64,000 nt of DNA from Conus ventricosus (lineage: Eukaryota; Mollusca; Gastropoda; Neogastropoda; Conidae): the NCBI GenBank assembly GCA_018398815.1, contig CM031616.1, forward strand, positions 68,603,045 to 68,667,044, given 5' to 3'. The notes under the pieces were generated by a model that saw only the letters and a list, made by a program, of their open reading frames with translations, did not search any database and was not told the DNA's origin. This document shows positions 28,257 through 52,961 of this stretch, in pieces; positions within the stretch are counted from its first letter, which is position 1; each line of letters begins with the position of its first letter. Both the position numbers and the translations under genes were made by a program.

Positions 28257-30677
28257 CTAACATGATCTCAGACTGTTGAGCACAAAGTCTCTGAGGTGCT
28301 TAGGCAGATGTCGTTTACGGACAGGGCGCCGGACTGGTGTTGAAACCGATGCGGTCTCAGATGCAGTAGCTGGGCTCTGGGGTGACCCTACAGCCGGGTC
28401 CTCCTGGAGGGTTGATGAGGAAGGCGCTAACACTGCCCTCTCTGGTGTAAGAGTGTCCTGAGAGAATGGCTGTGGCCCAGTCTCTGTCTGCTCCGATGGG
28501 TTTCCAGATGCCGGAGTCACTGGTGAAGACACAGGGGTCAACAAGGAACTAGGTGACGCTTCCGCACTGATATCCTGCTCTGTATTATCAAATATATCTG
28601 TGACCCCCTGTCGTGGAAGTACGTGATCAGTATGTCGTTTCAGCATTTGACCACTCGACAACCCTACCTCATATGACAATGGTCCTGTCAGCTTCCGAAT
28701 CACTCCAGGCAGCCACTTTGGTCCGATTGCAAAGTTCTTGGCGTAAACCAGATCACCCACTTGGTAGGTTCTCATGCTCGAATGATCATGATTCAGCTTC
28801 TGCTGCAACTGTTTCTGAACCACCTTTCGCTCCATGCACGGTTGGAGGATATCGAACCGAGTGCGCACCTTTCTGTTGAAGAGAAGCTCTGCTGGAGACC
28901 GACCGGTCGTTGTTTGTGGAGTCACCCTGCACCTTGACAAAAACCGCGACACCCTTGTCTCGATGGATCCTTGGTTAACTTTTCTCAACCCCTGCTTCAA
29001 GGTTTGCACAGCGCGCTCAGCTAGACCATTCGTGGATGCATGGTAGGGAGCTGACTTGATATGCTTGATGCCATTCTTCTGTAGAAAATCTTCAAACTCT
29101 GCACTGGTGAAACATGTGCCGTTATCCGATACTAGGATTTCTGGCACTCCATGAGTAGCAAAGGACTGTCGCAGCTTCTCTATAGTGGCCGCCGAAGTGG
29201 ATGACTTCACTGGGTATGCATCAATCCATTTTGAGTGTGCATCGATGATGACCAGAAACATCTTGTTGAGAAATGGTCCTGCGTAATCCACATGCAGTCT
29301 GCTCCACGGACGAGATGGGTGTAAGGGTGCCGGGCTAGGCATGTTGCGCTGTGTTTGGCAGATGGAACAGCTGTGTACAGTGTCTTCAATCTCTTTGTCC
29401 ATGTTCGGCCACCAGATGTAGGAACGAGCTAAGGCTTTCATTCGGGTCATTCCAGGATGTGACTCATGCAGGTCGTGCAACAGACGCTCACGGCCTTTCG
29501 GTGGGACCACCACCCGTGTGCCCCACAACACACATCCGTCTGCGATGCTCAGTTCACTGCGCCTAATCCAGTAAGGTTGAAGTATCTCATCATGGTAACT
29601 GTCAGGCCACCCTTTCAGAGTGTATTCCTTGACTCGAGATAATACTTTGTCTTGGTTTGTCCACTGCTGAATCTGTGTAGCCGTGACTGGCATGGTTTCA
29701 ACTTGCTCTATCAGTAGCACCGTTTCTCCCTGATCCGCTTGCCTTTCTTCAGTCACCTCGAGGGGCAATCTGCTCAGACCATCAGCATTGTTGTGTCTCT
29801 TTCCTTCTTTGTATATGATGGTGTACTCATAAGAGGCCAGGATCAATGCCCATCTCTGAATGCGCATGGCCGCCATGGCTGGTATCTGTTCGTTTTCCTT
29901 GAACAATCCCAGCAGTGGTTTGTGGTCTGTATGAATCTCGAAAGCGTGGCCAAACAAATACTGATGAAATTTCTTCACCCCAAAAATAATAGCCAAAGCC
30001 TCCTTCTCCACCTGACTGTAGTTCTTTTCAGCGCTGTTCAGAGTGCGTGAAGCAAATGCCACTGGACGTTCACTACCATTCTCCATTTTGTGTGAAAGTA
30101 CTGCCCCCACCCCATAGTTGGAAGCGTCACAGGCCAGCACTATGTCCTTTGCAGAGTCAAAGTGAACGAGTAGCTGGGGTGACTGTAACAGCTTCTTTGA
30201 CTCGATCCATGCTTTCTCTTGCAACTCCGTCCATGACCACCTGTTGTCCTTTTTCAGCAATGCATACAGGGGTGCCAGCACTGTGGAGAGATTTGGCATG
30301 AACCGGGAGTAGTAGTTTACCATCCCCAAGTATGCTTGCAGCTGCTTGGCATCCACTGGGCGCGGCATGTCCCGAACCACTTGCATCTTTTCAGGTATGG
30401 GCTTGAGTCCAGTTTGGTCGATCTTCAGGCCCAGGTAGACGAGTTCCGTGGCCAAAAACACACACTTCTGGCTGTTCAACCTTGCACCTGCCGCTTTCAA
30501 GTGTTGCAGCACTGCTGGCAAGGTCTCTAGATGGTCCCCGTGAGTCTTGCCTGCCACCAAAATGTCATCCAGTCGAACATGTACATGAGGAATGCCTTTC
30601 AGAAGGTTTTCCATGGTCCGCTGAAATATACCCGGGGCCGAGGAGATTCCAAAAGGCAGCCGGTTGTAGCGGTACAA
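28257..30677 (-). pseudogene. Gypsy pol segment: end of RT, RNase H, integrase
   Basis: 806 codons open. Begins in the RT at RYNRLPFGISSAPG. The catalytic box reads VRLDDILV, with Arg where YxDD polymerases have Tyr. RNase H: LACDASNYGVGAVLS, EKEALAI and TDHKPL. Integrase: HHCC zinc region (HESHPGMTRMKALARS... CSICQTQR), then the DDE residues in HVDYAGP, VSDNGTCF and LAERAVQ. The C-terminal tail after about residue 690 is Ser/Pro/Thr-rich. It is separated from the upstream RT part by a frame change near 30685. Confidence 0.93.
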
Positions 30678-31006
30678 ACCCGATGCGTGTTGATGGTGGT
30701 GAACTCCTTCGATTTGTCATCCAGTTGAAGCTGTTGGTAGGCCTGTGTTAGATCCAGTTTCGAGAACAAATTTCCTTCTCCCAGTTCTGCTAACACATCC
30801 ACCGTTGCTGGGATTGGGTAGTTGTCCAGCTTGGACGCCTTGTTGACCGTCACTTTGTAGTCTCCACAGATCCGAATGCTCTTATCTGGCTTGACCACCG
30901 TTACAATCGGGGCTGCCCAGTCTGAAAACTGGACTTTCTCGATTGTACCCTCTGCTTCTAGTCTATCTAGTTCTTGGCCGACCTTTTCACGGAGTGCATA
31001 GGGCAC
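30599..31006 (-). pseudogene. Gypsy RT amino-terminal segment
   Basis: Reads VPYALREKVGQELDRLEAEG then SDWAAPIVTVVKPDKSIRIC, GDYKVTVN and FSKLDLTQAYQQL. These are RT blocks 1-4 with the first catalytic Asp in KLDL. It lies in a different frame from both the protease segment before it and the rest of pol after it. Confidence 0.93.
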
Positions 31007-32259
31007 TGGACGTGGCTTGAAGTAGCACGGCTGTACATTCGGATCAACGAATATGTTGGCCTGAACCCCTCTAATGGTGCCCGTACTTCCTCAAACACTT
31101 CTGCGTGTTCATCCAGGATCTGCTGCAGCTCAGAATCAGGGGTTGTGAGTACCTTGTGCATTGCAAAAATCTCTGACCAGTCCAACTGGAGATGTTTCAG
31201 CCAGTCCCGACCCAGTAAACTGGGACCTGTTCCTTTCACTACCACTACTTCCAGCGTCGTTGGTGCCTTATGCTTGTATGTAACTGTCACCGAACAAATG
31301 CCTACCACTGGAATATCCTCTCCTGTGTACGTTTTCAGTCGCCGCCCGCATTTCTGCAAAGGCAGATAAGTCCCTCCTCTTTTGACCTGCCTCAAAGTTT
31401 CTTCACTGATCACGGTGAGAGATGCTCCTGTGTCAATTTCCATCTCGACTGGAACGCCCTGCATGTGTATCGTCACCAGGTATGGTTCTTCTTTGCTCTG
31501 TGTTTTATACACTGTGTACACCTCACTGTCATCATCTGTCCTCTGTTCAAAATCATCCACGTTTCTGACAACTCCACTACCCCAAGTACTTCGTCCCCAA
31601 CGATTCTTTGTTCTTTCTTGATACTTTCGGCACTGTCTTTGAATATGTCCTTTTTCCTTGCAGAACCAGCACTCAATGTCTCTTTTGTCTGTAATCTTCC
31701 TGTGTCCCTTGACGCTATCATTGTTCTGCTTCGCTGAACGGTCCACCCTGAAGACACTTTTAGCTTCGCTGTCAGTGGGATTTGCAGTTGCACTTCCCTG
31801 TATGTCTGCTGCGCTCTTTTCGGCCTGTTCCATGGCTGTTGCTATTTCAAAGGCCCTGGCAAAGGTCAAGTCCGCTGTTGCCAGCAGGCATCGTTGTGTG
31901 CGGTCATTGTTGATGCCGCACACCAACCGGTCCCTGAGCATACTGTCTAATCCCTCTCCAAAGTTACAGTCTGCCGACAGCCTACGTAACTGACTAACAT
32001 AGACTGCTACAGTCTCGTCGGAGCCTCGACTTCTTGTGTGAAACTTAAAACGCTGTACTATCTCCGAGGGCTTGGGCTTGAGGTGGTTTAACACCACCTC
32101 TTTCAGTTGTGTGTACGTTTTATCACCAGGCTTAGCTGATGTCAGTAGGTCACTCATAAGCTTGTAAGTGGCCCCCCCACATGCACTCAAAAGAATGGCT
32201 TTCTGTTTCCCTGCATCATCAATGTCATTAGCCGCAAAATAGTGTTCCATTCTTTCCAC
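30967..32259 (-). pseudogene. Gypsy gag-protease segment
   Basis: About 430 codons. Gag capsid-like region, then a zinc knuckle CWFCKEKGHIQRQC (CX2CX4HX4C) and an aspartic protease with the active site IDTGASLTVI and the flap/end region LLGRDWL. The frame is lost about 30 codons after the protease. The natural start is probably further upstream at 32321, where an ATG lies inside the primer site, in a frame separated by a C/G-run indel near 32277-32281. Confidence 0.92.
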
Positions 32260-32317
32260 ATACTGTTCCCAGTCTTCCCCCTATCCAGCCCAAACTCAGC
32301 TAATCGTCCGAACGTCG

Positions 32318-34965: not shown

Positions 34966-35450
34966 ATGGCTTTGGATACCAAAGGCTGTCACAGATGTGG
35001 CATTCTCACGCTGTCAGGCACCGTGTACAGAAAAGGGGAGAAAGAAATGTGCAGAGCTTGCAAATGCGCGCAAGAAGCAACAGTTCGAACACCGTGTGGA
35101 CAGAACTATTGCAGTATGTGTGGCATTCTCATCGACCAGCAGGGGGCAAACTACTGTTCAGCGTGCACAGCATTGAAGAACACCTTCATTCGGCCTGAAG
35201 ATTATGGGAGAGCATCAGCAGCACGTTGTAAGTGTGATTTCTGCAGCAATGATTACAGCACGTCACCACCAGCGCACAAGTTTGCAAGACTGGAATTACA
35301 GTTCACACCTTGGAAATCGCCGTCAGAGGGAAGCAGCCAAGTGCTGTCAGAGGGAAGCAGCAGTTCAAAGGAGACGGTTCCAGCCACGTGCCAGTCTGAA
35401 GGACTGCGTGAAAACTTGGTGGAAGAGGAGCTACGAAACAAGTGGGAGAG
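34966..35450 (+). CDS. ENDOV: ENDOV exon 1: RING-like cysteine-rich module
   Basis: First ATG of the open frame; good A at -3. Cys at 8, 11, 29, 32, 34, 44, 49, 52, 64, 67, 88, 90, 93. Spacing C29-x2-C32-x11-C44-x-Q46-x2-C49-x2-C52-x11-C64-x2-C67 fits the RING-HC pattern, except that the fourth ligand His is Gln (PCGQNYCSMC). A duplicated SEGSSxxxSEGSS linker follows. The donor is GAGAG/GTATGC. If the intron is retained the frame runs on to 35568, giving a 200-residue protein without nuclease. The splice to exon 2 is inferred from phase and homology. Confidence 0.75.
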
Positions 35451-37234
35451 GTATGCATGCAACATCAAGTTCAAAATAAGGAGCTTTCTACTGGCAGACA
35501 AAGGTTCAGCTAATTACAATATGGGCAAGTATTCAAATGCGATAAGAGATCCATGTATGATCATGTAGCTTTCTTATGTTACTGGAAGCCTTTGAGGAAT
35601 GCATTTAAGAAATTTTGTATGTTTGTGCACCTATGTGGTTGTGAGTATACGTCTGTGAGCAGCGTGTTTGTACTTAGTTTACATTGTCACTGACAAGCTG
35701 ACAATCATTTGATTCATGTAGTGATCCTAGTACACTTATTTGAAGAAAAGAACCCAAACTAACAGAATTTGTCAGTTATTGTGTGAAAATAGTACAGGGC
35801 TCAGACTATGGCTACAAACATTGAGTTTTGATATCTTCAGGGACAATATATTTTATATAAATTATTGCATTTCATATTAGTCCAGATCCAACTGTAGGTG
35901 ATTGCCAGCATGGATAATTTTACATTCATTTGGTCTTCTACTATTGAGCTTACAGAGGCTTTATCTGTTATCTTCTGACAGATGATAAATACTATAACTG
36001 AATTTGCTAAAAGCATTAAAAAATCAGTTTATCTGTGGGTCATTAGCATTGATTCATAAAGTCAGGGTTGCACATCCACGTCGGACATCGGACATAGACC
36101 GATTGCACATGCAAAATGTCCGATATAACTGGCAGTGAAGAGGACAAATGTCCCATTACTTTGCCGAAAACGCGGTCACTGTCCGATAGCTTTCCGATGC
36201 TCACGGACATGGCACCGGCCGTTTATATCAAGCCCGCATAATTATTTGAGTCCGACCGTCGTACAGAACTCCAGTCTGTAACTTTAGTGTAAGCCCACTG
36301 CCCAGTGAATCACTAGGCCTATTACTAGTCCCGTGTGCCACTGGCACTAAGCTTAGTGGCGAGCTGTGGCGGTCTATTTTTAGCTCGTTGGCTTGCAACT
36401 CTGCCTCCCTGCGAGGTACACGGCTCGCAGCTGAGAGCTCGCAGCCAGCTTGTGTCAGGGTTATTTTTAGCGAAAAGCGGCTAAAGAGCTTGCCATCACC
36501 CTGCCCGTCCATACAGCTGATGTAGAAAGAGGGTTCAGCACTCAGAATTTGATTTTGACAAGTCAAAGGAACAGACTGACAGCAGAAAACCAGGCCATGC
36601 TGATGAGGGTGCAAATGGAAGGACCAAGTGATGTCAAGGGGGAATCAGAATGGGTGTTCAGGGTGACAGAAAAGTGGGGAGAGAAAAGGAAAAGAATGCT
36701 CTTCAACCAAAAAGACGACTCCAAATGAATCAATATTGTACTTGAATACTAGCATTAGCAATGAATAGTACTGATTTAGGAAAGACACTGCCTCTGTGTG
36801 TGTGACTGTGTGTGTGTGTGGACTACTATAGTATGTTTACCAAACATGGCTTCCCACTCTAGGAATATAGTCAGCTTTTGTAATACCATTTTTGTGTGCA
36901 TAAAACTTAATATACATTCAATCTGGCTTGCGTTCAAAATGTCCGATTGATTTTGTTATGAAGAGGACAAATGTCCTATTACTTCAGGGTGGTCCAGGAC
37001 ATTTGTCTATTGATACTGCTAAGGATGAACAACCCTGTAAAGTAATTCAATCTGAAAACTTTAAAACAAACTGAATTTGTTTTATTGCAAAAGATGTACA
37101 TAGCTGCCTGTTTTTGCCTTTTAGACTTCAGCCTGGTGAGTCTGTTGTAAGAGTCAGCTAATTCACATTTTATATAATCATATATCACAATGCTGTGAAA
37201 TATTTGGCGCATGCACATCGATACAGGTGTATGA

Positions 37235-37284
<50 letters not shown>

Positions 37285-37398
37285 CATGTGTTTCTTTGTG
37301 TGTATGTATGTGTGTGTGTGTGTGCGCATGTGTATGTGTAATGTGTAACAAAGTGTACTATTTATATGTATGCAAATTGTTGTGTGTGTATTTTCAGA

Positions 37399-37441
<43 letters not shown>

Positions 37442-39964
37442 TGTGCGTGTGTGTGTGTATGTGTCTGTGTCTGTGTGTTTTAAATTAATTTGCCTCCTTT
37501 GGAGTCTTACTGCTCGACGACTAGTGGTCATGTTGTGACAGGGAACAGCTGTCCCTGAAGAATAAGCTGGTGGCTCAAGACTCCCGTGCCGTGAAGAAGA
37601 TCCTCCAGGCAATCCAGTCAAAGGACACGTCCAAGACATTCTACATTGGAGGTGTAGACATCTCCTTCATCAAGAACAACAATGTTGATGCCTGCGCCGC
37701 GCTTATCATCATCTCTTTTCCGCAGCTGAAGGTGATTGTGGCTATAATCCCTTCTTCTGTTGTTGTTGTCGTACCCTGGCTTAAAGACTCCAGGGATCAT
37801 CCAAACAGCCAAAGTACTTGAACACTATGGTACAAATGCATCAACTAGGGATGAGAACATTATGTGTGTGACTGTTTTTGATTACCCCACCACATGGTCA
37901 GCCACACTCCGAGGGAATCCCTTCTTCTAATATGAATGAAAATCGAAATAGGTTTTTAAAAGAGAGGTATATGGTTACAAAGTGTAAGTTAATTATATGT
38001 TTAATAATGAATTGTAGCATTCTGTCAAGATATGGTTGTCTATGTTTTCTCATTTTGTCAATGTTCAAAGTGAGAAAACTCTATGACAGATCTGCAGAAT
38101 GCATGATCAGATCGAAGACTAGCCACACACAATAAAAATGGATAATGCTCAGGTCTGGAGGTAAGTCTTGTGTATTATCCTTTGAGTCAATTCTGCTGGT
38201 TCTTAGTCTCCAGAACATTGATGGGGACTGCTGTTTGAGGGAGATGGTGACAGGTGTCATGCTTGAGAAAGGGAGCTTTTAGTTGGTCAATAGAGGTAAG
38301 TCATCAGACTTGTGTTCCAAGGTTGGGGGGGAAGGGGGGGGGGGGGATTCCCACTCAAGTTAGCCGAGATAGAAGAGGCTGTCTTTCCAGAATTAACTTT
38401 GCAGACTCCAGTCCACTTCTGGTCATGTGGAAGAGACTTCAAGCAAAGCTCCTTTGAGATAAATCATGAACTCATGCACGAAAACTTCTTGCGAGCATTT
38501 AAAAACCCCATGTCACCTTTTGGAGAAGACTAAGCCATCACATGCCTGTGGTATGCATGACACAAAGGCATGCATGCTGGTGTCCTGTTTAGACATTTTC
38601 CCTGAAGACAGAATGTGGCTACCTGAATGGCGTGATTGAAGATGGTTTTGTATGCAACAGTCTCACCAATGGTCTTTTCTTTCTTTCTGCGTACGTAGGC
38701 TGATACTCCTGCGGACACTCCCTGTATAGCCAGGCAGTGGAGTTTTGTGTGTATGACCCTTTTTTATCCCGCCATTAAGGCAGCCATACTCCATCTTCGG
38801 GGAAGGTGCATGCTATGTGTCACGTGTCATCCATACCAACGGCCAAACTGGCCTTCTCTTCCGAAAGTTGGTGATGGGATTTGACGTGTGTGCAAGATGT
38901 TATGCGTGCGTTCACACACGGAACCTCGGTTTATAGTCTCATTCGAAGGACTACTCACCAATGGTAAACCTCAAGAGTTGTTGCTGAGGAACGAAGGAAG
39001 ACGGGGGGGGGGGGGAGTGGAGCTCATCATGGAACACTGGACTGATCTGCTTGACTCTGGTTTGTGAGTTTAGAAGCAGTCTCTGTCGTCAACAAAAACA
39101 TTGTAGGTGGTGTCCTTTGGATGTCAGAACAGGCGATACTGACTGCTACTGAAGTGACTCAGCAGCATAGCAGTGTCTTCTCGGGATGGGGTTCACTAGT
39201 TGACCGTGGGAACAACAAAGAAAAGAAAGAAACCAGTTATACAGGATTATCATTTTCAGCAACTATAAATTTGATGCTTTCTGTCTTATGTCTCTGAGAG
39301 AGAGTAACTGTCGTCATCTGATCTGAGATTTTACAGTAGAAAGATTTTCAACCAAATTTTGGGTGTGTTTTTAGAAGGTGTATTTTAAAGGGTTGTGTGT
39401 GAATGACTTGACTTCAACGCGGTGACAGCCCTGATATGGCCCTTTTGTGTTCAGCTGGACTGCAAGCAACATTACCTTACCTTACCTCATATTGTAAATG
39501 TAATTAATAGTGAACCGCCAGGAAAATGTAGACTCACGAATCACAAGAGAAAACACGACTCGTTTCGACCTCTTAGGTCTTCTTCAAGCAAGATTTGTCC
39601 TGAGTGTTTTGTCTCTTGCCTGAAGAAGACCTAAGAGGTCGAAACGTGTCATGCTTTGTCTGATTCGTTTGTCTACGTTTTCTTGGTGGTTCGCTATTAA
39701 TTACATTTAAAATTTGTTTAGATTTCCGCCTGCAATCGCCTCACTTTGCAACTAGACCTTATGTGTCCAGGTGGTCTACAAGCGTCTTGAGATGATCCAG
39801 CTGACGGCGCCGTACATCCCAGGGTTCCTGGCGTTCAGGGAGGTAGATTCCCTGATCTCCCTGTACAGAAGCATGCTGAAGAATGCGCCACAGTACAAAC
39901 CAGATGTGAGTCTCCTCTTCCTGACTGGTTTTGCTCTTGTGTTTGTATTGAATAATGCAAGTGT

Positions 39965-41040: not shown

Positions 41041-44000
41041 TTGAAGATGGAGAAACTGGGAACATGAAATTAAGAAAATATGTTACAGATATGAAAACTC
41101 TTCACTAGCTGCATAAGGGAACCATCGCAATCCTTTTTGAAGGCAGATATATTTGTATTGCCTGCTCCGAGTACATAAATGATAAGAAATTAAGTCTGGG
41201 GGAAAATGTCAAATGGTATAAAACACACAGAGAAATAATCAGAGGGTGTGGAACCCACAGAATATTCAGTAAGGGCTCTGTTAACCACAATACTGTCTGA
41301 TGTCACTGAAGGCAATAACGGACGTCTTGGCTTTACCTTCCTCCATAGCTGTGTCAGTGACAAGTACTTGCCCTGTACATTTCGTAACAGAGTTGGGAAG
41401 GAGTCGTTCACCAGCCAATCACCAATTGCCTAACATGTGGTTTTTCAGAGTGACCAACCAATCACCAAGGACCTATAATGAGCGCAATCGTCCCCATGAC
41501 ACAGCTGCACCACAGATAAAAGAACAGCATGAGCTGTTGCAGAAACTGTTGATGATTATAGTTTATGTATTCATCCAGTTTACAACTCAGGGCAAAGTGG
41601 ATTCATACTCTCTTCAGAAGACTAAGAAAATCCTATACCTCCAGGGAGAATTTTCAGGGATACAGATTACATTGAAACCCAGTTGAGGGGGGGGGGGGGG
41701 GGGGGAGTATACTGAAGGGTTCTGTTGCTTTGCCATGAGGGACATTTTCAGCACCAGATGATTATGATTTTGCTATAATTTAGAAGCTTTCCCTGGGGAA
41801 CATTCTTCTGTCATGGTACTAGACTTGGTCGTTTGGTGATCAGGAGCTGAGGCAAACTGTTTCATCATGGGCATGTTTTGTGTTCGCTAATGACTTTTTT
41901 GTCGGACAGTTGTGTGGCTCATGGTTAAAAAGAAAGTTCAGGTCTTGAGAGTCTGATGGAGATTATAAAATTGAGTGTGAATCACATGCTTCACAGCCAG
42001 TTATCAGTTCATGAGGAGACCTCTGACGTATAATAAATTTGTATTCCCATCCTTTTCCTGACTTTTCTACATGATTTTACTTCACAGAGTTCTGTACCTC
42101 TTTGTAACATGATCTAGAACATTGACATCTGTACATACAGCTTATGTCATTATGGAAGTGCAATCAAACTTATGTCAATGTAATATATAATATATATATA
42201 TAATTTTATATACACACACTATGTATATACATATATGTATGTATGGAATGTACCCTGTCCAGTACATTCTCGTAATGCATCAGCTGTTGAACAGGTGATA
42301 TTCGTGGACGGAAATGGACGCCTGCATCCACGCGCCTTTGGCTTGGCTGCCACTGGGGGTGTTGCTGGACGTTCCCTGTGTGGGCGTGGCCAAGACGCTG
42401 ATCCACGTCGATGGCATCGAGGACAACGCTGACCACAAGGCGAAGGTAGTTGTTACTCCTTCTTCTTCGTTCATGCGATGTCCACTGCCATCATATTGGT
42501 AGTGTTCACAGCTTTATTTTTCCATCTCATTCGAGACACTAAAGGGCCGAACAGACAAGGCTTAACATTTCTAATCAACATTTTTTGTTGTAGTCCAAGC
42601 AGAGGCATATATCAAACTTGTGTACTAGTTAAATAGGGAAAATTAAGTTCCCAGAAAGTGATGACGTCATTTTTGCACAATTGTGTGTGTGTGTTCTCAT
42701 TGTTTGAATATCACCTGACACTTGCGTACAAGCTTTCATGCGTATCTACATTATCTAAAGGAAAATAAACCTAGTCGAGTTTGGTATTAAAAGAATTGTC
42801 GGGAATTTGCCTATTCAGTCATCTCAAAAGCACATGTATTTTTACATTTTTCATGACAACTACTAATTATCAACTAACAGCCCCACTTGTAATGGCCGTC
42901 AGCAATGCCGAACACATTGTTGCCAGACCGGCTTTACACAGATGACATTCAGTTCGCGAGTACAGCACGGTTAGCTGGCTGGTGGGGAGCAGCCTGCAGA
43001 AAACACCCCTTTCCCTGACCTGCATTCACGGCTTGGCCTCTGCAACTGTGGGCGAGCTGTAAACTCCCCTTCTCTCAAAACTAAGTGGCTTGCTCTGAAC
43101 AGCCATGGTTGACATTCTGTCAATGGAGAGGGGATTGGGGGGGGGGGGGGGGATATCTGGTGGTAAGTTGGATGTTGGAGACAGTGTCTGTTTGGGTGAT
43201 CAACTTCTTTCATTGAGTAGGGAAAACAGAGGGGCAGGGGTGGTGAAGAAGACAGAAGAGGGTGGGGTGGTGATGGGGGCTGGGGTAACGTTTCAGATCG
43301 GATTTGAGGGTGACAACCCTGATGAGATGGAAGACGGTTCTTCTCAAAGATGATACTTGGAAAGAACGAGTATTTCCTTTTACTGGTCTTACATGCAGGT
43401 CGATGCACTGAAGGGGTTGGGGGGATGTTCTTGCAGGAAGGGTTTGGGGTTGGCCTTAGTGGAGTGTTGGTGACAATTTGCCCGGGGTGGAATTGAAAAA
43501 TGGTGCCACCTTGGCAGAGCATCTCCAGTCTTTTAATGGGATCAGTGTAGAAACTTTTAATGGGATCAGTGTAGCATCTTTTAATGGGATCGTGTAGATC
43601 TTTTAATGGGATCAGTGTAGCAGATTGAGCAGATCTTCTACTTGATTTTTGATGGTAGCAGTACCACACTCAGCGGCCAACATTGTTACCATTATCAATT
43701 ACATTATTAAGAATTCTCATATAGCGCTTAACTTTGGTTTAGAGCCCAAGCTCTAAGTCTTTACAGCCCTTCTCTTGTTTATACAGTGGGCGGCCTACTT
43801 GGGCAGAGTGGCTGAAGCTGCTGGTGCTACATTGAGTTGTTTCCCTTGTTACTCAGTGAGGTATCACTCGCTGGGTTTTTTCTGTTAAATCTTTTCGTTC
43901 TTTTGGTACGTGCTTTTGTAGCATGTGTACAGTGTCATCTATTCTGATGCCAAAGTGGCCTTCTCTTCCAAAAGTTTGTGATCGGTTTTTTACTTGTGTG

Positions 44001-47000
44001 CAAGATGTTACGTGGGTGCATGGCTGCCTACCGCCCCAGAGTATCCGTATTTGCCCCCCGAATAATGAAATCATGCAGCCTGTCCTGGAATCCACTTTTT
44101 TATTCTATGTCCCGCAAAAAAAAATTCGGGAGAAAAAACAACAACAACAACAACAAAAAAACGAAGTCGAGTTCGTCAGTGATCCTGACTGACCGACTTC
44201 GGTCGTGGCCATCCTGCCCAAATTCCGTCGGAAAAGACCCGAACATTGCCGAACTGACCAGTGCGCATGCGCATACACGGTCTTCCCGAGTTTTGAAAGC
44301 GAGGGAAAAATGGACGCGAAACACGGAAAGCATAAAAATGCCGACGGCGATCTCAACTATGGGTTCTCTCAGAAGAAGAAACGTCAGCAGACATTCTGTC
44401 AAAATTTTACGAAACCTGGCCGTTCATCAAGCGTGGCAAATCGAGACTTACGCTCCTTGTGAAATTTGTGCGTAGTGATTTCCCCCCCCATCGATTGGAG
44501 GATGAAATAACCCGTCTGTCGCCACAGAAAAGCACAAGAAGAACACAAAAATCCGTGAGAGCGAGAAATCTTGTAACATTAGCGGTTTTCTTTCAGCGGG
44601 GCTCAGACGTCAACCAGTCAGGAAACTTTTGATGTCATAAGAGCTGAAACGATGATGGTTGACCTTGCGCTGAACTGAATTTGCCGATGGCTGGCTGGAC
44701 AAGCTAACAGATGCGTTAAATTGATGTTTCCTGACTCGGACATCGCAAAGAAGTTTCAGTGCGCTAGAAGCAAAGTAGCATTGTAGAAGTTGTACACAGT
44801 GTAAATAAAGGTAAGGTTTCACTTTAATTTTGATGTGGTTTGATATGTGCTACCGCTGCATGTGTCCCTGGAAATCAGTCAGTGTCCTGGTTTTGAAAAA
44901 GTATGTCCCTGAAAGAGGCGGAAGGGGGTAGGCAGCCTGTGGGTGTCCACGCCTTAAAACCATTGTTTTTTAGTCTCATTGGAAAGGTTTTTGAGAAAGG
45001 GAGTCAAAAAACAATGTTAACTCTGAGGGAAAATTTCCTATGCTGAAACTGCTGTTAGCGATTCAAATCAGAAACCCCCAAGATCATGAATCTGGCCTCT
45101 ACGACTGAGCTATTTTGGCACCATTTGGTGCTCAATTTTTTTCTCCAGTTTTCTCACTTTGGTTTCGTAGCTTTCTGCTGATTGTAGAGCGGACACTGCT
45201 TGTGCTTTTTGGTGATACATGCAGACAGAAGAAGCAGTTTTTTCGTGTGTGATGTAGTATGGGAGGGATGTTCGTGTGTGTTGCATGTAAAAATGAACTT
45301 GAAGTTGTCAGTATGTCAGATGTGTATCTACGTGTGCTCATGATTTGGGAAATCTTAAGGCATCGATCCCAATCTAGAGCCCCATTCACAGATAGCTGCC
45401 CAAGTGCCACACTGAATGAGTTCTGATCCGTGCTAAAAGAAAACAGGTTTGAAGAACGATGGGGGCACGTTTCCCTTGACGACCAACAGTGGCGAGGTTA
45501 TGGGCATGGCTCTGCGCAGCACGAGGTCAGCCCCCCAACCCCATCTACGTTGCCCCTGGGTCACAAGATCACCCTGCCGTCCGCGTCACCCTGGTCCAGA
45601 AGTGCTGCAGTACGGGATCCTGAACCCACACGATTTGTAACCCTTCCAGACCTTCCTGACATACCTTTTTTTGTTTGTTGGTGTGTGTTCTTTTAAAAAT
45701 TTTTTTTACTACAAGTACATTGCAGAATTTCTCTTGCACAGAGATCCACTTGTCTGGAAAGGCCTGGCCTCAAGATTTTTTGGGAGGGCCAAAACTCACA
45801 AAAACCTGGCAAGAAAATGAAGATGGTGCGGGGAGAAACAGAATGCTGCGATTCCTGCTGCCCCTCCCCCTGTCTTCCCATGGGAGAGAACAAAAAATTT
45901 TTCAGTTTCATTTTTTTTTGGAGAGGTCTGGGAAGGAAGTAGGGGGATGGGGGAGGAGGGTCTTTCTGGAACACCTGTGCCCCTGCCTTTTCTGCTGGTT
46001 CCCTCCTGCATGGTCCAAGGTGACTGCAGGTGCAGTGCCCTTTATGGTCTGTGTGTGTATCACAATTCAAAGGTTTAGCTTGATAAACATGCATTGAAAG
46101 ACTTCTTGTTTGTTTAGAATTGCTGCAAAAGCAGGATCTCTTTACTGGCAGAAATATGGCAGACCTTTTTTTCTGTTTCTGATTTTTTTTTTGCGTGGCA
46201 CTTTTCTTTCTTTTTTTTTTTTTAACTTTTTTTTTTTTTTTTTCAAACGTCCCATGTTCATGCACTCAGTGTGATTTCTGCACAGCTACATCCAGGGTTA
46301 TCTGTCATGATCCTCATGCCAGAAGCCCACAGGGAGCTACGATTGTTGGGAACTATAGTCCCATCATCAAAGAAGACCTTGCATTGATGAACCAGTGGAG
46401 GTGTCAGTATGACTGTTCTATTGGAGCTTTTCCAGAACTCTGACCCTTGAAACGCTGTGCTGATGACAGTGACTTAAGAGTCACGAACCGAGGAATTTTG
46501 ATCCCACGGCAGTTTTTAAACTGCTGCATTAAGTCGCTTGAGTCAAAGTCTTCAAAAGCGTGAGACGGAAAAGCAGAAGAAACAAATTGTGCGCAGCCAA
46601 AAAGCCCGGTCTGTGGGGGGTCTTGTATCTGTAAGCGTGGAGAATAGCGAACCACACTTTTGCTTTGCTGTCTGTAACGCGCCTATAGCTGACCAGTGTT
46701 TACACAACGACTACACACAGGCGTTTCCTTGACTTGGATGTTTAACCGAGAAAAAGCGGAATTGTCTCTGTCCACAACACCCCGTGAGCTATTTTTTGCG
46801 AAGGTTATCAGTGTGGGGAATATCGTCAAGTGCCAGACAGATTCACCATCCTTCGCTTGCCGGAACAAGTGTCTGTTTTAGAAGCGCTTGAATTCTTACA
46901 CATACACGAACGCACGCACGTACGTGCGTGCGCGGCGCGCGCGCGCGTACACACAACACACACACAACACCCCACACACACACACACACACACACACACC

Positions 47001-51300: not shown

Positions 51301-52914
51301 ACCAGGATGTGGACACCTTAAGTATTGGTCAGCAACCTGGAGCAACAGTGTCAGAGAGACGTCCATGAAATAGAAGAGATTGGGCTGACATGTGTTCAAG
51401 TCTGGCTGTAGAACCTGTCATGGCTAAAACATGAAAAAGCCTCAGGGTGATAACAGTCTGATGGAGTTCCTTAATGTGTCATCCCAGTTGTCTGACCTTC
51501 AGCTAATTCCAATGTCAACGGCAGCTGGCTTGGACAGATTCTTACATGGACTTTAGCAACCTGTTGCTTCAGCGCCATTGCAGACAGAGATTCCACAAGC
51601 TCAGACGATTAACAAGCCATAGTTTTTACTCTTTCTCAGACTTTTTGTGAGCATTTTGATAGTCTGTTTTGTATTATAGCATGGTTTAAAAAAAGGGATG
51701 AGAAGAGATTCATATCTGTTTGTATCTTTGCCAGGATTTGATGAGCTGGGTCTTTGTTGGTATCTCAGAGTGATTTTTTTTTTTTCCTTTTTCTTTTTCT
51801 TTTCTTCAAACCATCAGGAAATCGGATGTGATGGTAGAACTCTTGAACTGACACATTAATTAGAGAAAATCATTTTTCCTTTTCAGATTCTTCTGAGATA
51901 ATCATTTTAATTTTCAAAATCTTTTGGAATGGAATACTCTAATGGCTATTTTTCAACAGACTTGGTTGTAATGAATTATTTTCCTCTTAATCATCATAGC
52001 TGCCAACTGTTACGGGAAAACCGGAACATATCGTTTTTTTTTTTAATTTGTTCATATTTTCGTTGTTTGCTGAAAAAATTCCGGTTTACGAGTTTTCAAA
52101 AAAAAAAAAAAAAAAAAAAAAACCCAAAATGAAATAAAAGAACGTTTGGCAACTGGTCCGACTGAACAGAAATCGTAAACTCGGAAGTCAGCATGAAAGG
52201 GGCATAACTAGGCCCATTCCGCGCATGCGCATAGCTGCTGTTCAAATAGTCAACATGGCGTCTTCAAGTGGTAGCACGGAGAAAACCACAAAACCTAAAC
52301 GATTCCAGCGGTATCTGCCAGCTTATAAAGACAAGTTTTCATGGGTCACTTCTTGCCCTTCAAAGGGTAAAAAGTTTGCTTTCTGCACCGTGTGTCGATG
52401 TCCGGTGAATATTTCACATGGGGGAAGAAATGATCTGCCCGATCACGAGAAGACCACGAAGCACAAAAAAAACAACGAAGCTGAGGAATCGGCAGCCGTC
52501 AAAATAATAATAGGCTTGCATTTGATTAGTTTTCCTATCAGGAGATGTGTTACTCTTTTGGACTCTGGGAGGTTGGCAGCTATGAATCATGTAGTTGATT
52601 TTACTTTGATGCTACTTTGACTACCTGTATTGGAATGTTGACATTGAAGTATTGTTTTAACGTTATTGTTCTTTTCTTAAAAGTCAACACAGCTAAAACT
52701 GAGTCTGATGATGAACTGGCTTTACCAGTGTTTTGAGAATTATTCTTTTTTCTTCTTTTAGTTGATAGTCAGTTTTGCAGCCATGATTATGTGGTAATTG
52801 TTTCAGGCGGATCTGCACTCTCGGCAGTATTTGATGGACAACAAAACGGACCCAGAGGAACTGATTGTCAGAGAGGGAGAAAGTCCCCCAATGAATGGCA
52901 GTGAGGATTTGTGA
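34966..52914 (+). CDS. ENDOV: ENDOV, endonuclease V with an N-terminal RING-like cysteine-rich extension (six exons)
   Basis: Join 34966-35450, 37542-37731, 39771-39905, 42295-42445, 45447-45636, 52807-52914. Endonuclease V cleaves next to inosine; the animal enzyme acts mainly on RNA. Visible: catalytic Asp201 in GGVDISFI, Glu249 in FLAFREV, Asp275 in FVDGNG, the PYIP wedge (239-242), GHKITLP, and the PEPTRF/AD junction near the end. Residues 1-161 are an extra module with 13 Cys in 8-93, arranged like a RING finger, followed by a Ser/Glu-rich linker. The RING-like part joins the nuclease through a phase-2 intron that yields LRNKWEREQLSLKNKL, matching the usual W..EQ..L start of the family. 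Exons 4 and 5 carry single-base indels. Confidence 0.88.
36063..37037 (+). mobile_element. hAT-like DNA transposon, internally deleted, 6-bp target duplication
   Basis: Ends CAGGGTTGCACATCC and its inverse (CAGGGTTGTTCATCC). TAAAGT lies on both sides (36057-36062 and 37038-37043). It carries the C-terminal dimerisation segment of a hAT transposase (see next entry). It lies in ENDOV intron 1 on the same strand. Confidence 0.85.
36495..36728 (+). pseudogene. hAT transposase C-terminal fragment
   Basis: 78 codons with stop: ITLPVHTADVERGFSTQNLI then LTSQRNRLTAENQAMLMRVQ. The xERxFSxxxLIxTxxRNRL motif is the hAT dimerisation region, closest in style to ZNF862/KIAA1586-like transposases. The N-terminal and catalytic parts are missing. 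Confidence 0.85.
37235..37482. repeat. (GT)n microsatellites
   Basis: Two interrupted (GT)n tracts shortly before ENDOV exon 2. Confidence 0.95.
37542..37731 (+). CDS. ENDOV: ENDOV exon 2
   Basis: Acceptor TTGTGACAG, donor GTGATT. Encodes Arg162 (last base) to Lys225, with catalytic Asp201 in YIGGVDISFIK and the ACAALIIISFPQLK strand. Confidence 0.94.
37755..37925 (+). mobile_element. Short interspersed repeat, copy 1
   Basis: GTTGTTGTTGTCGTACCCTG, then AAAGACTCCAGGGATCATCC, GGGATGAGAACATTA and TTTTGATTACCCC match 58755-58920 in reverse orientation. No tRNA head seen; origin unknown. Confidence 0.7.
38697..38955 (-). mobile_element. tRNA-derived SINE, type 1, 5' truncated
   Basis: Contains the 3' two thirds of the SINE at 25527-25965 (GGCCAAACTGGCCTTCTCTT, GTGATGGGATTTGACGTGTG, GGTTTATAGTCTCATT on the + strand) and stops within the central domain, so the tRNA head is missing. 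Confidence 0.88.
39418..39489 (+). mobile_element. Short retroelement 3' remnant with (CTTAC)n tail
   Basis: GACAGCCCTGATATGGCCCT then GCAAGCAACATTACCTTACC, matching the copy at 8120-8215. Confidence 0.55.
39490..39712. mobile_element. Penelope-like palindromic remnant
   Basis: Inverted arms of about 100 bp. The left contains AATTAATAGTGAACCGCC and CGTTTCGACCTCTTAGGTCT; the right contains CCTGAAGAAGACCTAAGAGG, GTCGAAACGTG and GGTTCGCTATTAATT. Each arm has a CTGAAGA-hairpin-GAAAC arrangement (TTGAAGA on one). Confidence 0.65.
39771..39905 (+). CDS. ENDOV: ENDOV exon 3
   Basis: Acceptor ATGTGTCCAG, donor GTGAGT. 45 codons in phase 0: VVYKRLEMIQLTAPYIPGFL AFREV... with the PYIP wedge and catalytic Glu249. 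Intact. Confidence 0.96.
39962..40152. repeat. (GT)n microsatellite
   Basis: A long interrupted (GT)n after ENDOV exon 3. Confidence 0.95.
40780..40955 (-). mobile_element. Single-arm copy of the 14.6-kb palindromic element
   Basis: GAAATGAGGCAGGGAACAAT, AACAGTAAACAAGTGGGG, TTTATTCAAGACTGGCACAG and GACGAACAATCTAATAGTGG correspond to one arm of 14611-14945. Orientation is nominal. Confidence 0.85.
41011..41041. repeat. Poly-G tract
   Basis: About 30 consecutive G. A second run of about 18 G is at 41687-41705. Confidence 0.95.
42295..42445 (+). CDS. ENDOV: ENDOV exon 4 (frame disrupted by net -2)
   Basis: Acceptor TTGAACAG, donor GTAGTT. Starts VIFVDGNGRLHPRAFGLA with catalytic Asp275. It then continues in another frame as GVLLDVPCVGVAKTLIHVDG and ends phase 0. 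Length is 151 nt where 153 would keep frame. Two one-base gaps within a stretch of about 12 nt (42351-42362) would explain this. Confidence 0.9.
43260..43430 (-). mobile_element. Degraded CR1-like LINE carboxyl end
   Basis: Reverse strand reads ACKTSKRKYSFFPSIIF, then KNRLPS, resembling the YRKFSFFPRTVRDWNSLP end at 62.1 kb, but with more damage and frame changes. Confidence 0.55.
43528..43625. repeat. ~23-bp minisatellite
   Basis: Five copies of CTTTTAATGGGATCAGTGTAG, with one to three bases missing in some. Confidence 0.92.
44019..44939 (+). mobile_element. DNA transposon with 6-bp target duplication, hAT-like
   Basis: Inverted ends CATGGCTGCCTACC and CAGGCTGCCTACC. TGGGTG on both sides (44013-44018 and 44940-44945). 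The interior has a short frame starting MDAKHGKHKNADGD at 44310, then a Lys-rich stretch. With frame changes it resembles the start of a BED/hAT transposase. Not autonomous. Confidence 0.8.
44263..44272. promoter_or_regulatory. NRF-1-like palindrome
   Basis: GCGCATGCGC within TGCGCATGCGCA, about 40 bp before the ATG of the short frame in the transposon. The same word precedes the BED finger frame at 52255. Confidence 0.5.
45447..45636 (+). CDS. ENDOV: ENDOV exon 5 (multiple frame changes)
   Basis: Acceptor AAAACAG, donor GTAACC. The conserved pieces appear in order but in different frames: NDGGTFPLTTNSGEVMGMAL RST, then PNPIYVAPG, HKITLPSA, VTLVQKCC and PEPTRF. At least four one-base gains or losses are needed, one of them a C6 run. 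The order and the conserved PEPTR end leave little doubt about identity. Confidence 0.85.
45637..46900. other. ENDOV intron 5, first part: nothing recognised
   Basis: Unique-looking intronic sequence with poly-T tracts (about 46205-46243). No repeat family or coding signal identified. Confidence 0.4.
46905..48430. repeat. Compound microsatellite domain, (CA)n and (GA)n
   Basis: At least eight (CA)n or (GA)n tracts. In 47430-47660 a ~115-bp unit (GACATGCAC...TTTGTACA.ACAAAATCAATAAAAGCATG) recurs three times. In 47880-48260 a unit with GTGCATGCATGA followed by (CA)n recurs. The domain appears to have grown by duplication of whole compound units. Confidence 0.9.
48480..49985. other. AT-rich intron segment, nothing recognised
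   Basis: No open frame, repeat array or mobile-element end that I can support. Confidence 0.4.
49985..51128. repeat. 58-bp satellite, about 19-20 copies
   Basis: Unit ACAGAGGTAGAGGAGAAATT, GAAGTCTAAAGACAAACACA, AATTCACAATGGCCATAG. Central copies are nearly identical; the edges are more diverged. Some copies have one-base gains or losses, so long open frames on the - strand are accidental. Confidence 0.97.
51995..52584 (+). mobile_element. 590-bp DNA transposon with BED finger and 6-bp target duplication
   Basis: Perfect 13-bp inverted ends CATAGCTGCCAAC. AATCAT on both sides (51989-51994, 52585-52590). The interior holds a poly-A run, an NRF-1-like palindrome and the first ~70 codons of a BED-finger protein. 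The ends resemble those of the element at 44.0 kb. Lies in the last ENDOV intron, 220 bp before the terminal exon, same strand. Confidence 0.87.
52221..52230. promoter_or_regulatory. NRF-1-like palindrome
   Basis: GCGCATGCGC, 25 bp before the ATG at 52255. Matches the known NRF-1 core (YGCGCAYGCGCR), by eye. Confidence 0.55.
52255..52620 (+). CDS. BED-type zinc finger fragment of a hAT-like transposase
   Basis: Starts at ATGGCGTCTTC; an in-frame ATG also exists at 52225. 121 codons. KDKFSWVTSCPSKGKKFAFC, then TVCRCPVNISHGGRNDLPDH and EKTTKHKKN form a BED finger with Cys44, Cys47, His64 and His70. After about residue 75 the sequence is not transposase-like, and the frame runs through the inverted end of the element into the intron. 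No catalytic domain. Probably not a functional transposase, but the finger itself is intact. Confidence 0.75.
   Translation: MASSSGSTEKTTKPKRFQRYLPAYKDKFSWVTSCPSKGKKFAFCTVCRCPVNISHGGRNDLPDHEKTTKHKKNNEAEESAAVKIIIGLHLISFPIRRCVTLLDSGRLAAMNHVVDFTLMLL
52807..52914 (+). CDS. ENDOV: ENDOV exon 6 (terminal)
   Basis: Acceptor TTGTTTCAG. 35 codons and TGA: ADLHSRQYLMDNKTDPEELI followed by an acidic end. AD after PEPTRF matches the bacterial PEPTRWAD and animal PEPVRQAD positions. Intact frame. Confidence 0.88.
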   Translation, partial: ADLHSRQYLMDNKTDPEELIVREGESPPMNGSEDL

Positions 52915-52955: not shown

Positions 52956-52961
52956 AATAAA
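52956..52961 (+). terminator. ENDOV poly(A) signal
   Basis: AATAAA 42 bp after the ENDOV stop codon. Confidence 0.7.

Follow-up and report, generated by a model that had tools for sequence, protein, structure and literature searches.

Does a cysteine-rich exon really form the front of an endonuclease V (ENDOV) protein and, if so, what kind of domain does it encode? The question is raised by a stretch of 64,000 nucleotides of Conus ventricosus DNA, referred to here in its entirety as the window, in which a gene of the ENDOV family (PF04493), whose human member is an inosine-specific ribonuclease, opens with an exon carrying regularly spaced cysteines. A preliminary description, covering positions 34966..37731 of a gene that runs beyond that range, had joined this exon to ENDOV, seen RING-HC spacing in its cysteine module and proposed a lineage-specific inosine ribonuclease whose zinc module may bind RNA or a ubiquitin-pathway partner. 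The fusion is real. As to the module, we think it on balance probable that it is not a RING and that it is instead, as predicted, a pair of treble-clef fingers which likely serves as a docking adaptor on the ENDOV of many gastropods.

The fusion is established by splice sites that fit in phase, by a motif of ENDOV itself at the end of exon 1 and by the same architecture in other gastropods, and on this point the preliminary description was right. Firstly, the frame of exon 1, with an in-frame stop upstream of its ATG, stays open for 161 codons and two further bases up to a donor (GAGAG/GTATGC) that is in phase with the acceptor at 37542 (...GACAG/GGAACAG), the joined product being WEREQLSLKNKL; we infer the 35450/37542 junction from splice sites, phase and relatives together. 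Were intron 1 retained, the frame would yield a protein of 200 residues ending at 35565. Secondly, exon 1 closes with ten full codons that spell an ENDOV N-terminal motif whose like is found in the module-less ENDOVs of Mytilus (IPDEIKDKWEREQ), Pecten, Lingula (ISDELRSEWEGEQ) and Lineus. The W-x3-Q of this motif is shared with human ENDOV, and its tryptophan (W160) is invariant in all 14 rows of our alignment, 12 of them gastropod and two bivalve-type. Thirdly, exon 1 aligns by tblastn from ATG to end with the N-termini of ENDOVs from Nucella (E 1.4e-42), Babylonia (E 2.7e-29) and Littorina (E 7e-23), and the starting MALD is kept in four of five caenogastropods. Beyond the junction, equivalents of the human catalytic residues D52, Y91 and E100 (PMC3741642) are present in GGVDISF (exon 2) and APYIPGFLAFREV (exon 3). 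When the genome itself was searched with PF04493, exons 3 and 4 scored 35.5 and 24.9 bits (cut-off 23.4) and exon 2 scored 21.8, below the cut-off; a close relative, P0002, scores 207.5 bits. The ENDOV family search of the 3.52-Gb assembly scored four candidates and gave three matches (E up to 1), every one of them within the window; for exon 1, this locus was the only match among 14 candidates.

The joined exon 1–ENDOV sequence was also searched against 5.8 billion proteins. The matches listed are the best 120 of 386 and the best 120 of 2,809, the second search having scored 7,984 candidates, and in them cephalopods and chitons are not represented by named records. Looking for the N-terminal cysteine pattern in mollusc ENDOVs, as had been proposed at the outset, found the module on ENDOV in ten of the 15 named gastropod species among the matches listed (Nucella, Babylonia, Littorina, Batillaria, Haliotis, Aplysia, Gigantopelta, Patella, Bulinus and Elysia), under database names that range from endonuclease V and endonuclease V-like to uncharacterized or hypothetical. 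A further protein of 361 residues (P0017) likewise has module and ENDOV together; its contig, 1,175 bases long, encodes it without a break, as a spliced transcript would. Gastropod ENDOVs without the module among the matches listed come from Pomacea (labelled low quality), Lymnaea, Lottia (partial), Candidula and Bradybaena, together with a second Nucella protein (P0006) of nearby locus number. In a midpoint-rooted ENDOV tree of 37 rows the gastropods form one group (support 98/92), within which the window falls next to Babylonia (97/84), and the wider set that also takes in the two Nucella proteins has a support of 100/98. Because the module is found in the Patella line, the Haliotis–Gigantopelta line, the caenogastropods and the heterobranchs, the simplest reading is that the ancestor of gastropods already had the fusion, and that where the module is lacking it was lost later or the first exon was missed. 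The term lineage-specific was thus drawn too narrowly for a fusion that is spread over gastropods and perhaps some bivalves. The accompanying statement that human and bacterial ENDOV lack such a domain holds on the vertebrate side, where none of the ENDOVs among the matches listed has two spaced CxxC pairs at its N-terminus.

Whether the module extends to bivalves is less clear. Two spaced CxxC pairs occur in 13 of 184 relatives, namely 11 gastropod relatives, Pinctada (P0024) and P0013; 162 of the 184 were anchored, and the remaining 22, checked over their first 90 residues, include none with two pairs. Both Pinctada and P0013 start MDFC-x2-CG, followed by a second CxxC. Their shared descent with the gastropod module, and the presence of the module in some bivalves, are put forward as a suggestion, because against a profile of the gastropod unit Pinctada scores 3.0 bits (E 0.93) and P0013 scores -1.4 bits. 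That profile scores 37–49 bits on its own 12 members, which match by construction, and no higher than 3.0 bits on the other 173 of 185 proteins. The module was not found in 13 other named bivalves, partly judged from the first 110 residues only.

Several relatives differ at the N-terminus in other ways. P0006 (Nucella lapillus ACOMHN_037590), three locus numbers away from the module-bearing ENDOV and on a branch of 0.47, shows repetitive sequence at its N-terminus where the module would be, and may be a duplicate that has lost or replaced it. The Candidula and Bradybaena proteins (P0028, P0029) carry long, Cys/His-rich N-terminal repeats of the type NLDSKSCEPHH where the module would stand. 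Scallop ENDOVs (P0012, P0123, P0124) begin with a similar segment, MYRR...FIFGD, and P0016, which groups with the scallops in the tree, has an apparent cut-off zinc unit (MDCG...CGNC); alternative first exons may account for this difference.

The make-up of the module is best seen from its cysteines. Those of Conus exon 1 at residues 8, 11, 29, 32, 44, 49, 52, 64 and 67, and the glutamine at 46, are as previously given, and to them are added C34 and C88-x-C90-x2-C93. Nine positions are invariant across the 12 gastropod proteins aligned (C49, C52, G53, L55, C64, C67, C88, C90 and C93), which amounts to a core of C-x2-C-G-x(10-17)-C-x2-C followed by C-x-C-x2-C; C49, C52, G53, C64 and C67 are kept in all 14 rows once the two bivalve-type sequences are included. 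Six of the 12 (Haliotis, Aplysia, Gigantopelta, Bulinus, Elysia and P0017) possess this single unit with C-x-C-x2-C. In the remaining six, five caenogastropods and Patella, another unit precedes it, and all six of these tandem proteins keep C8 and C11. A profile built from eight single-unit sequences scores 12.0 bits on unit 1 of the window and 20.4 bits on unit 2, the best of 200 control shuffles with cysteines held fixed reaching 8.7, and both units rise above the shuffles in four of the six tandem proteins (the window, Nucella, Littorina and Patella, although the Patella unit 1 match spans only residues 2–11). Since a single-unit profile finds both halves in this way, the module is most readily understood as a small zinc unit that has been doubled. 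Zinc-ribbon rows from a Pfam search of 13 relatives were non-significant (Auto_anti-p27 E 0.064, Ribosomal_S27e E 0.082, zn-ribbon_14 E 4, Zn_Ribbon_1 E 4.2); the Auto_anti-p27 and Zn_Ribbon_1 ribbons, in one protein each of the 13, have C-x2-C-G ... C-x2-C in common with the unit.

AlphaFold2, at modest confidence (predicted local distance difference test, pLDDT), places strands at residues 21–23 and 26–28 and helices at 30–36 and 65–73. The order per prediction is knuckle, hairpin and helix, which is the definition of a treble clef (PMC4999995); on this ground the module is predicted to consist of tandem treble-clef (zinc-ribbon-like) fingers, each of which would bind one zinc via C-x2-C-G and C-x2-C. 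The best fold matches, though weak, are mostly LIM halves, GATA and ClpX-type zinc-binding domains. With these tandem treble clefs the module shares the knuckle-hairpin-helix order and two cysteine pairs per unit (predicted here), whereas it differs from them in its extra CxCxxC, the lack of a Pfam match and an inter-unit spacing unlike that of LIM. A LIM domain, spaced C-x2-C-x16-23-H-x2-C-x2-C-x2-C-x16-21-C-x2-(C/H/D), was considered and rejected, as 16 residues lie between C32 and C49 where LIM has two. GATA fingers are spaced C-x2-C-x17-C-x2-C; unit 1 in the window shows this very spacing, but no GATA model in Pfam matches it.

How might such a module serve ENDOV? Between C-x-C-x2-C and the ENDOV motif lies a linker of variable length (15 to 200 residues), and riding on it the module would behave as an independently moving tether that docks ENDOV on a protein partner, either an RNA-granule protein or an ENDOV cofactor; inosine-containing RNA would then be cut where that partner sits. 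Control by a partner is plausible in view of the human enzyme, which Tudor-SN promotes (PMC3741642) and which under stress relocates to RNA granules, where it meets PABPC1 (PMC5561087). Set against vertebrate ENDOVs, many gastropod ENDOVs add one or two predicted zinc units, the CxCxxC and a linker to a catalytic domain whose residues are held in common. Among the papers listed on endonuclease V or ENDOV with zinc, fusion and gastropods or molluscs, none describes the module; the endonuclease V matches in PMC5601910 turned out to concern endonuclease VIII, and the words 'zinc', 'mollusc' and 'fused' were not found by word search in a review of ENDOV diversity (PMC4693234). The in vivo function of human ENDOV was still called unclear in 2024 (PMC11217400). 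A conserved docking or binding module built onto ENDOV in a large animal group would offer a direct handle, in that its ligand names the pathway.

Some results weigh against the reading of the module as doubled treble clefs docking an active ENDOV. With the unit profile, Babylonia passes for unit 2 only and Batillaria for neither unit. The window's own module carries a net charge of +5. RINGs also turn up in the weak fold lists, where LIM and GATA outrank them in two comparisons and LIM halves tie with them by Z in a third, and in a PDB sequence search the TRAF6 RING is the top match for both the window (E 0.0026) and Nucella (E 0.0038). Exon 4 of the window contains a frame change and exon 5 several, with conserved residues on either side.

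Of the competing explanations, the one that survives best takes the module to be an accessory that binds nucleic acid and increases affinity for RNA containing inosine, which we regard as rather unlikely whilst giving it appreciable weight. The GATA-like spacing of unit 1 and the positive charge in the window would suit such a role, yet the module is negative in 11 of 14 proteins and zero in one, with only two positive, and no curated nucleic-acid-binding model reaches its cut-off on it. Charge argues mildly against RNA binding, and because it is zero or negative in 12 of the 14 we favour protein docking, even though zinc fingers are among the commonest companions of RNase H-like domains generally (PMC3985635).

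It is also conceivable, though unlikely, that the ENDOV locus here is a recent pseudogene, so that the fusion would be real in the lineage and not made in this animal. The frame changes in exons 4 and 5 speak for this, as does the lack of any ENDOV match (E up to 1) elsewhere in the assembly, but exons 1–3 (810 bases) are intact and conserved residues flank the breaks. The window's branch in the ENDOV tree is short (0.078, with Babylonia at 0.15 and Nucella at 0.07), a length biased towards conservation, the window's row having been pieced from frames that match relatives with the broken stretches left out; because of that bias we moved our estimate for a pseudogene upwards slightly, from quite unlikely to unlikely. 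The changes resemble small indels, several of them beside runs of G or C, and may reflect how well this region was assembled. Their clustering in two exons fits local assembly error, which is a likelier cause of the breaks than a young pseudogene.

That the caenogastropod module is a true RING-like cross-brace, acting as an E3 or E3-binding domain, is in our judgement very unlikely. The RING-HC pattern straddles the two units, C29 and C32 belonging to unit 1 and its remaining positions to unit 2. What stands in its favour is chiefly the TRAF6 match, which rests on a local likeness, CxxC-x11-TPCGxxYCxxC; TPCGxxYCxxC is kept in all five caenogastropods, Nucella shows the full C3HC4 spacing including His, and the only Pfam row on the window's module at E up to 10 is ASFV_p27 (E 1.8), a family of IAP-like viral proteins. 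Yet the same PDB search with the single-unit N-terminus of Aplysia gave no RING match, and the likeness to TRAF6 is possibly a convergent resemblance of caenogastropods. The third RING cysteine (C44) occurs only in these five proteins and is missing in the other seven of the 12. At the His position they have Q, H, A, Q and Q, so that His is found in Nucella alone (1 of 12), the window has Q and one protein has Ala, which cannot hold zinc. No RING model was returned for the window or 13 relatives in Pfam at E up to 10, nor for seven proteins in NCBIfam at E up to 1, searches in which HMMER filters drop most matches above about 0.1. A RING would, moreover, leave C8 and C11 without partners despite their conservation, and the invariant glycine that follows C52 suits a knuckle, the corresponding place in a RING being helical. 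We therefore reject the RING label of the preliminary description: its third cysteine and its His are not conserved across the 12 proteins, no RING profile matches in the searches above and single-unit relatives cannot form a RING. If a small zinc unit, once doubled, mimics a RING by pattern in one lineage, calls based on motifs must be made with caution. A bolder proposal, which we consider improbable as a whole, is that gastropods, and perhaps some pteriomorph bivalves, evolved a dedicated zinc-tethered inosine ribonuclease, which an ancient N-terminal finger delivers to a specific ribonucleoprotein partner, and that the duplicated finger of caenogastropods, having converged on the RING-like TPCGxxYCxxC, may connect the disposal of edited RNA with another pathway, perhaps a ubiquitin-related one.

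As the preliminary description allowed, the 34966 frame could instead belong to a separate gene; it could also be an artefact of the gene model. Either reading is almost certainly mistaken: some molluscan ENDOV records do begin with other sequences, but exon 1 ends in ENDOV's own motif in a phase that fits exon 2, the same junction recurs in ten gastropod species and the intron-free contig, and no stand-alone relative of the module (88–281 residues) was found at E up to 1 among 17 word-sharing candidates. The features of the locus are collected in Table 1.

Table 1. Features of the ENDOV gene in the Conus ventricosus window (positions within the 64,000 nucleotides).
Feature	Position	Strand	Remarks
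ENDOV exon 1: ATG, cysteine module, linker, ENDOV N-terminal motif, phase 2 donor	34966..35450	+	Conserved with Nucella, Babylonia, Littorina, Batillaria
Zinc unit 1 (predicted), residues 8-36, C8-x2-C11-G ... C29-x2-C32	34987..35073	+	Extra front unit; also in four other caenogastropods and Patella
Zinc unit 2 (predicted), residues 49-73, C49-x2-C52-G53 ... C64-x2-C67	35110..35184	+	Common to all 12 gastropod proteins
C88-x-C90-x2-C93 motif	35227..35244	+	Invariant in 12 of 12 gastropod proteins; low model confidence here
ENDOV's own N-terminal motif VEEELRNKWE, end of exon 1	35419..35450	+	Matches module-less ENDOVs
Intron 1, GT-AG, with TG repeats and hAT transposase fragment	35451..37541	+	
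ENDOV exon 2, GGVDISF, equivalent of human D52	37542..37731	+	
ENDOV exon 3, equivalents of human Y91 and E100	39771..39905	+	PF04493 35.5 bits, own-genome search
ENDOV exon 4, VDGNG; frame change near 42348-42353	42295..42445	+	
ENDOV exon 5, ends approximate; several frame changes, about 45530 to 45610	45440..45636	+	
Last ENDOV exon, ADLHSRQYL..., stop	52807..52914	+	AATAAA at 52956

Traces of mobile elements lie in and before the gene. Pieces of a retrotransposon that we take to be Ty3/Gypsy-like occupy 28257–32280 on the reverse strand, ahead of ENDOV, and comprise reverse transcriptase, RNase H, integrase, aspartyl protease and a CCHC knuckle, with frame shifts between the pieces. The fragment within intron 1 (36471–36725, forward strand) corresponds to the dimerisation region of a hAT transposase and lies just below the Pfam cut-off (E 0.00044, 20.4 bits). 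Amongst the relatives, the ENDOV of Babylonia areolata (P0003) ends in C-terminal tandem repeats (SDWGVDQDAHPSA), from which its Pfam label Lysostaphin_N probably stems.

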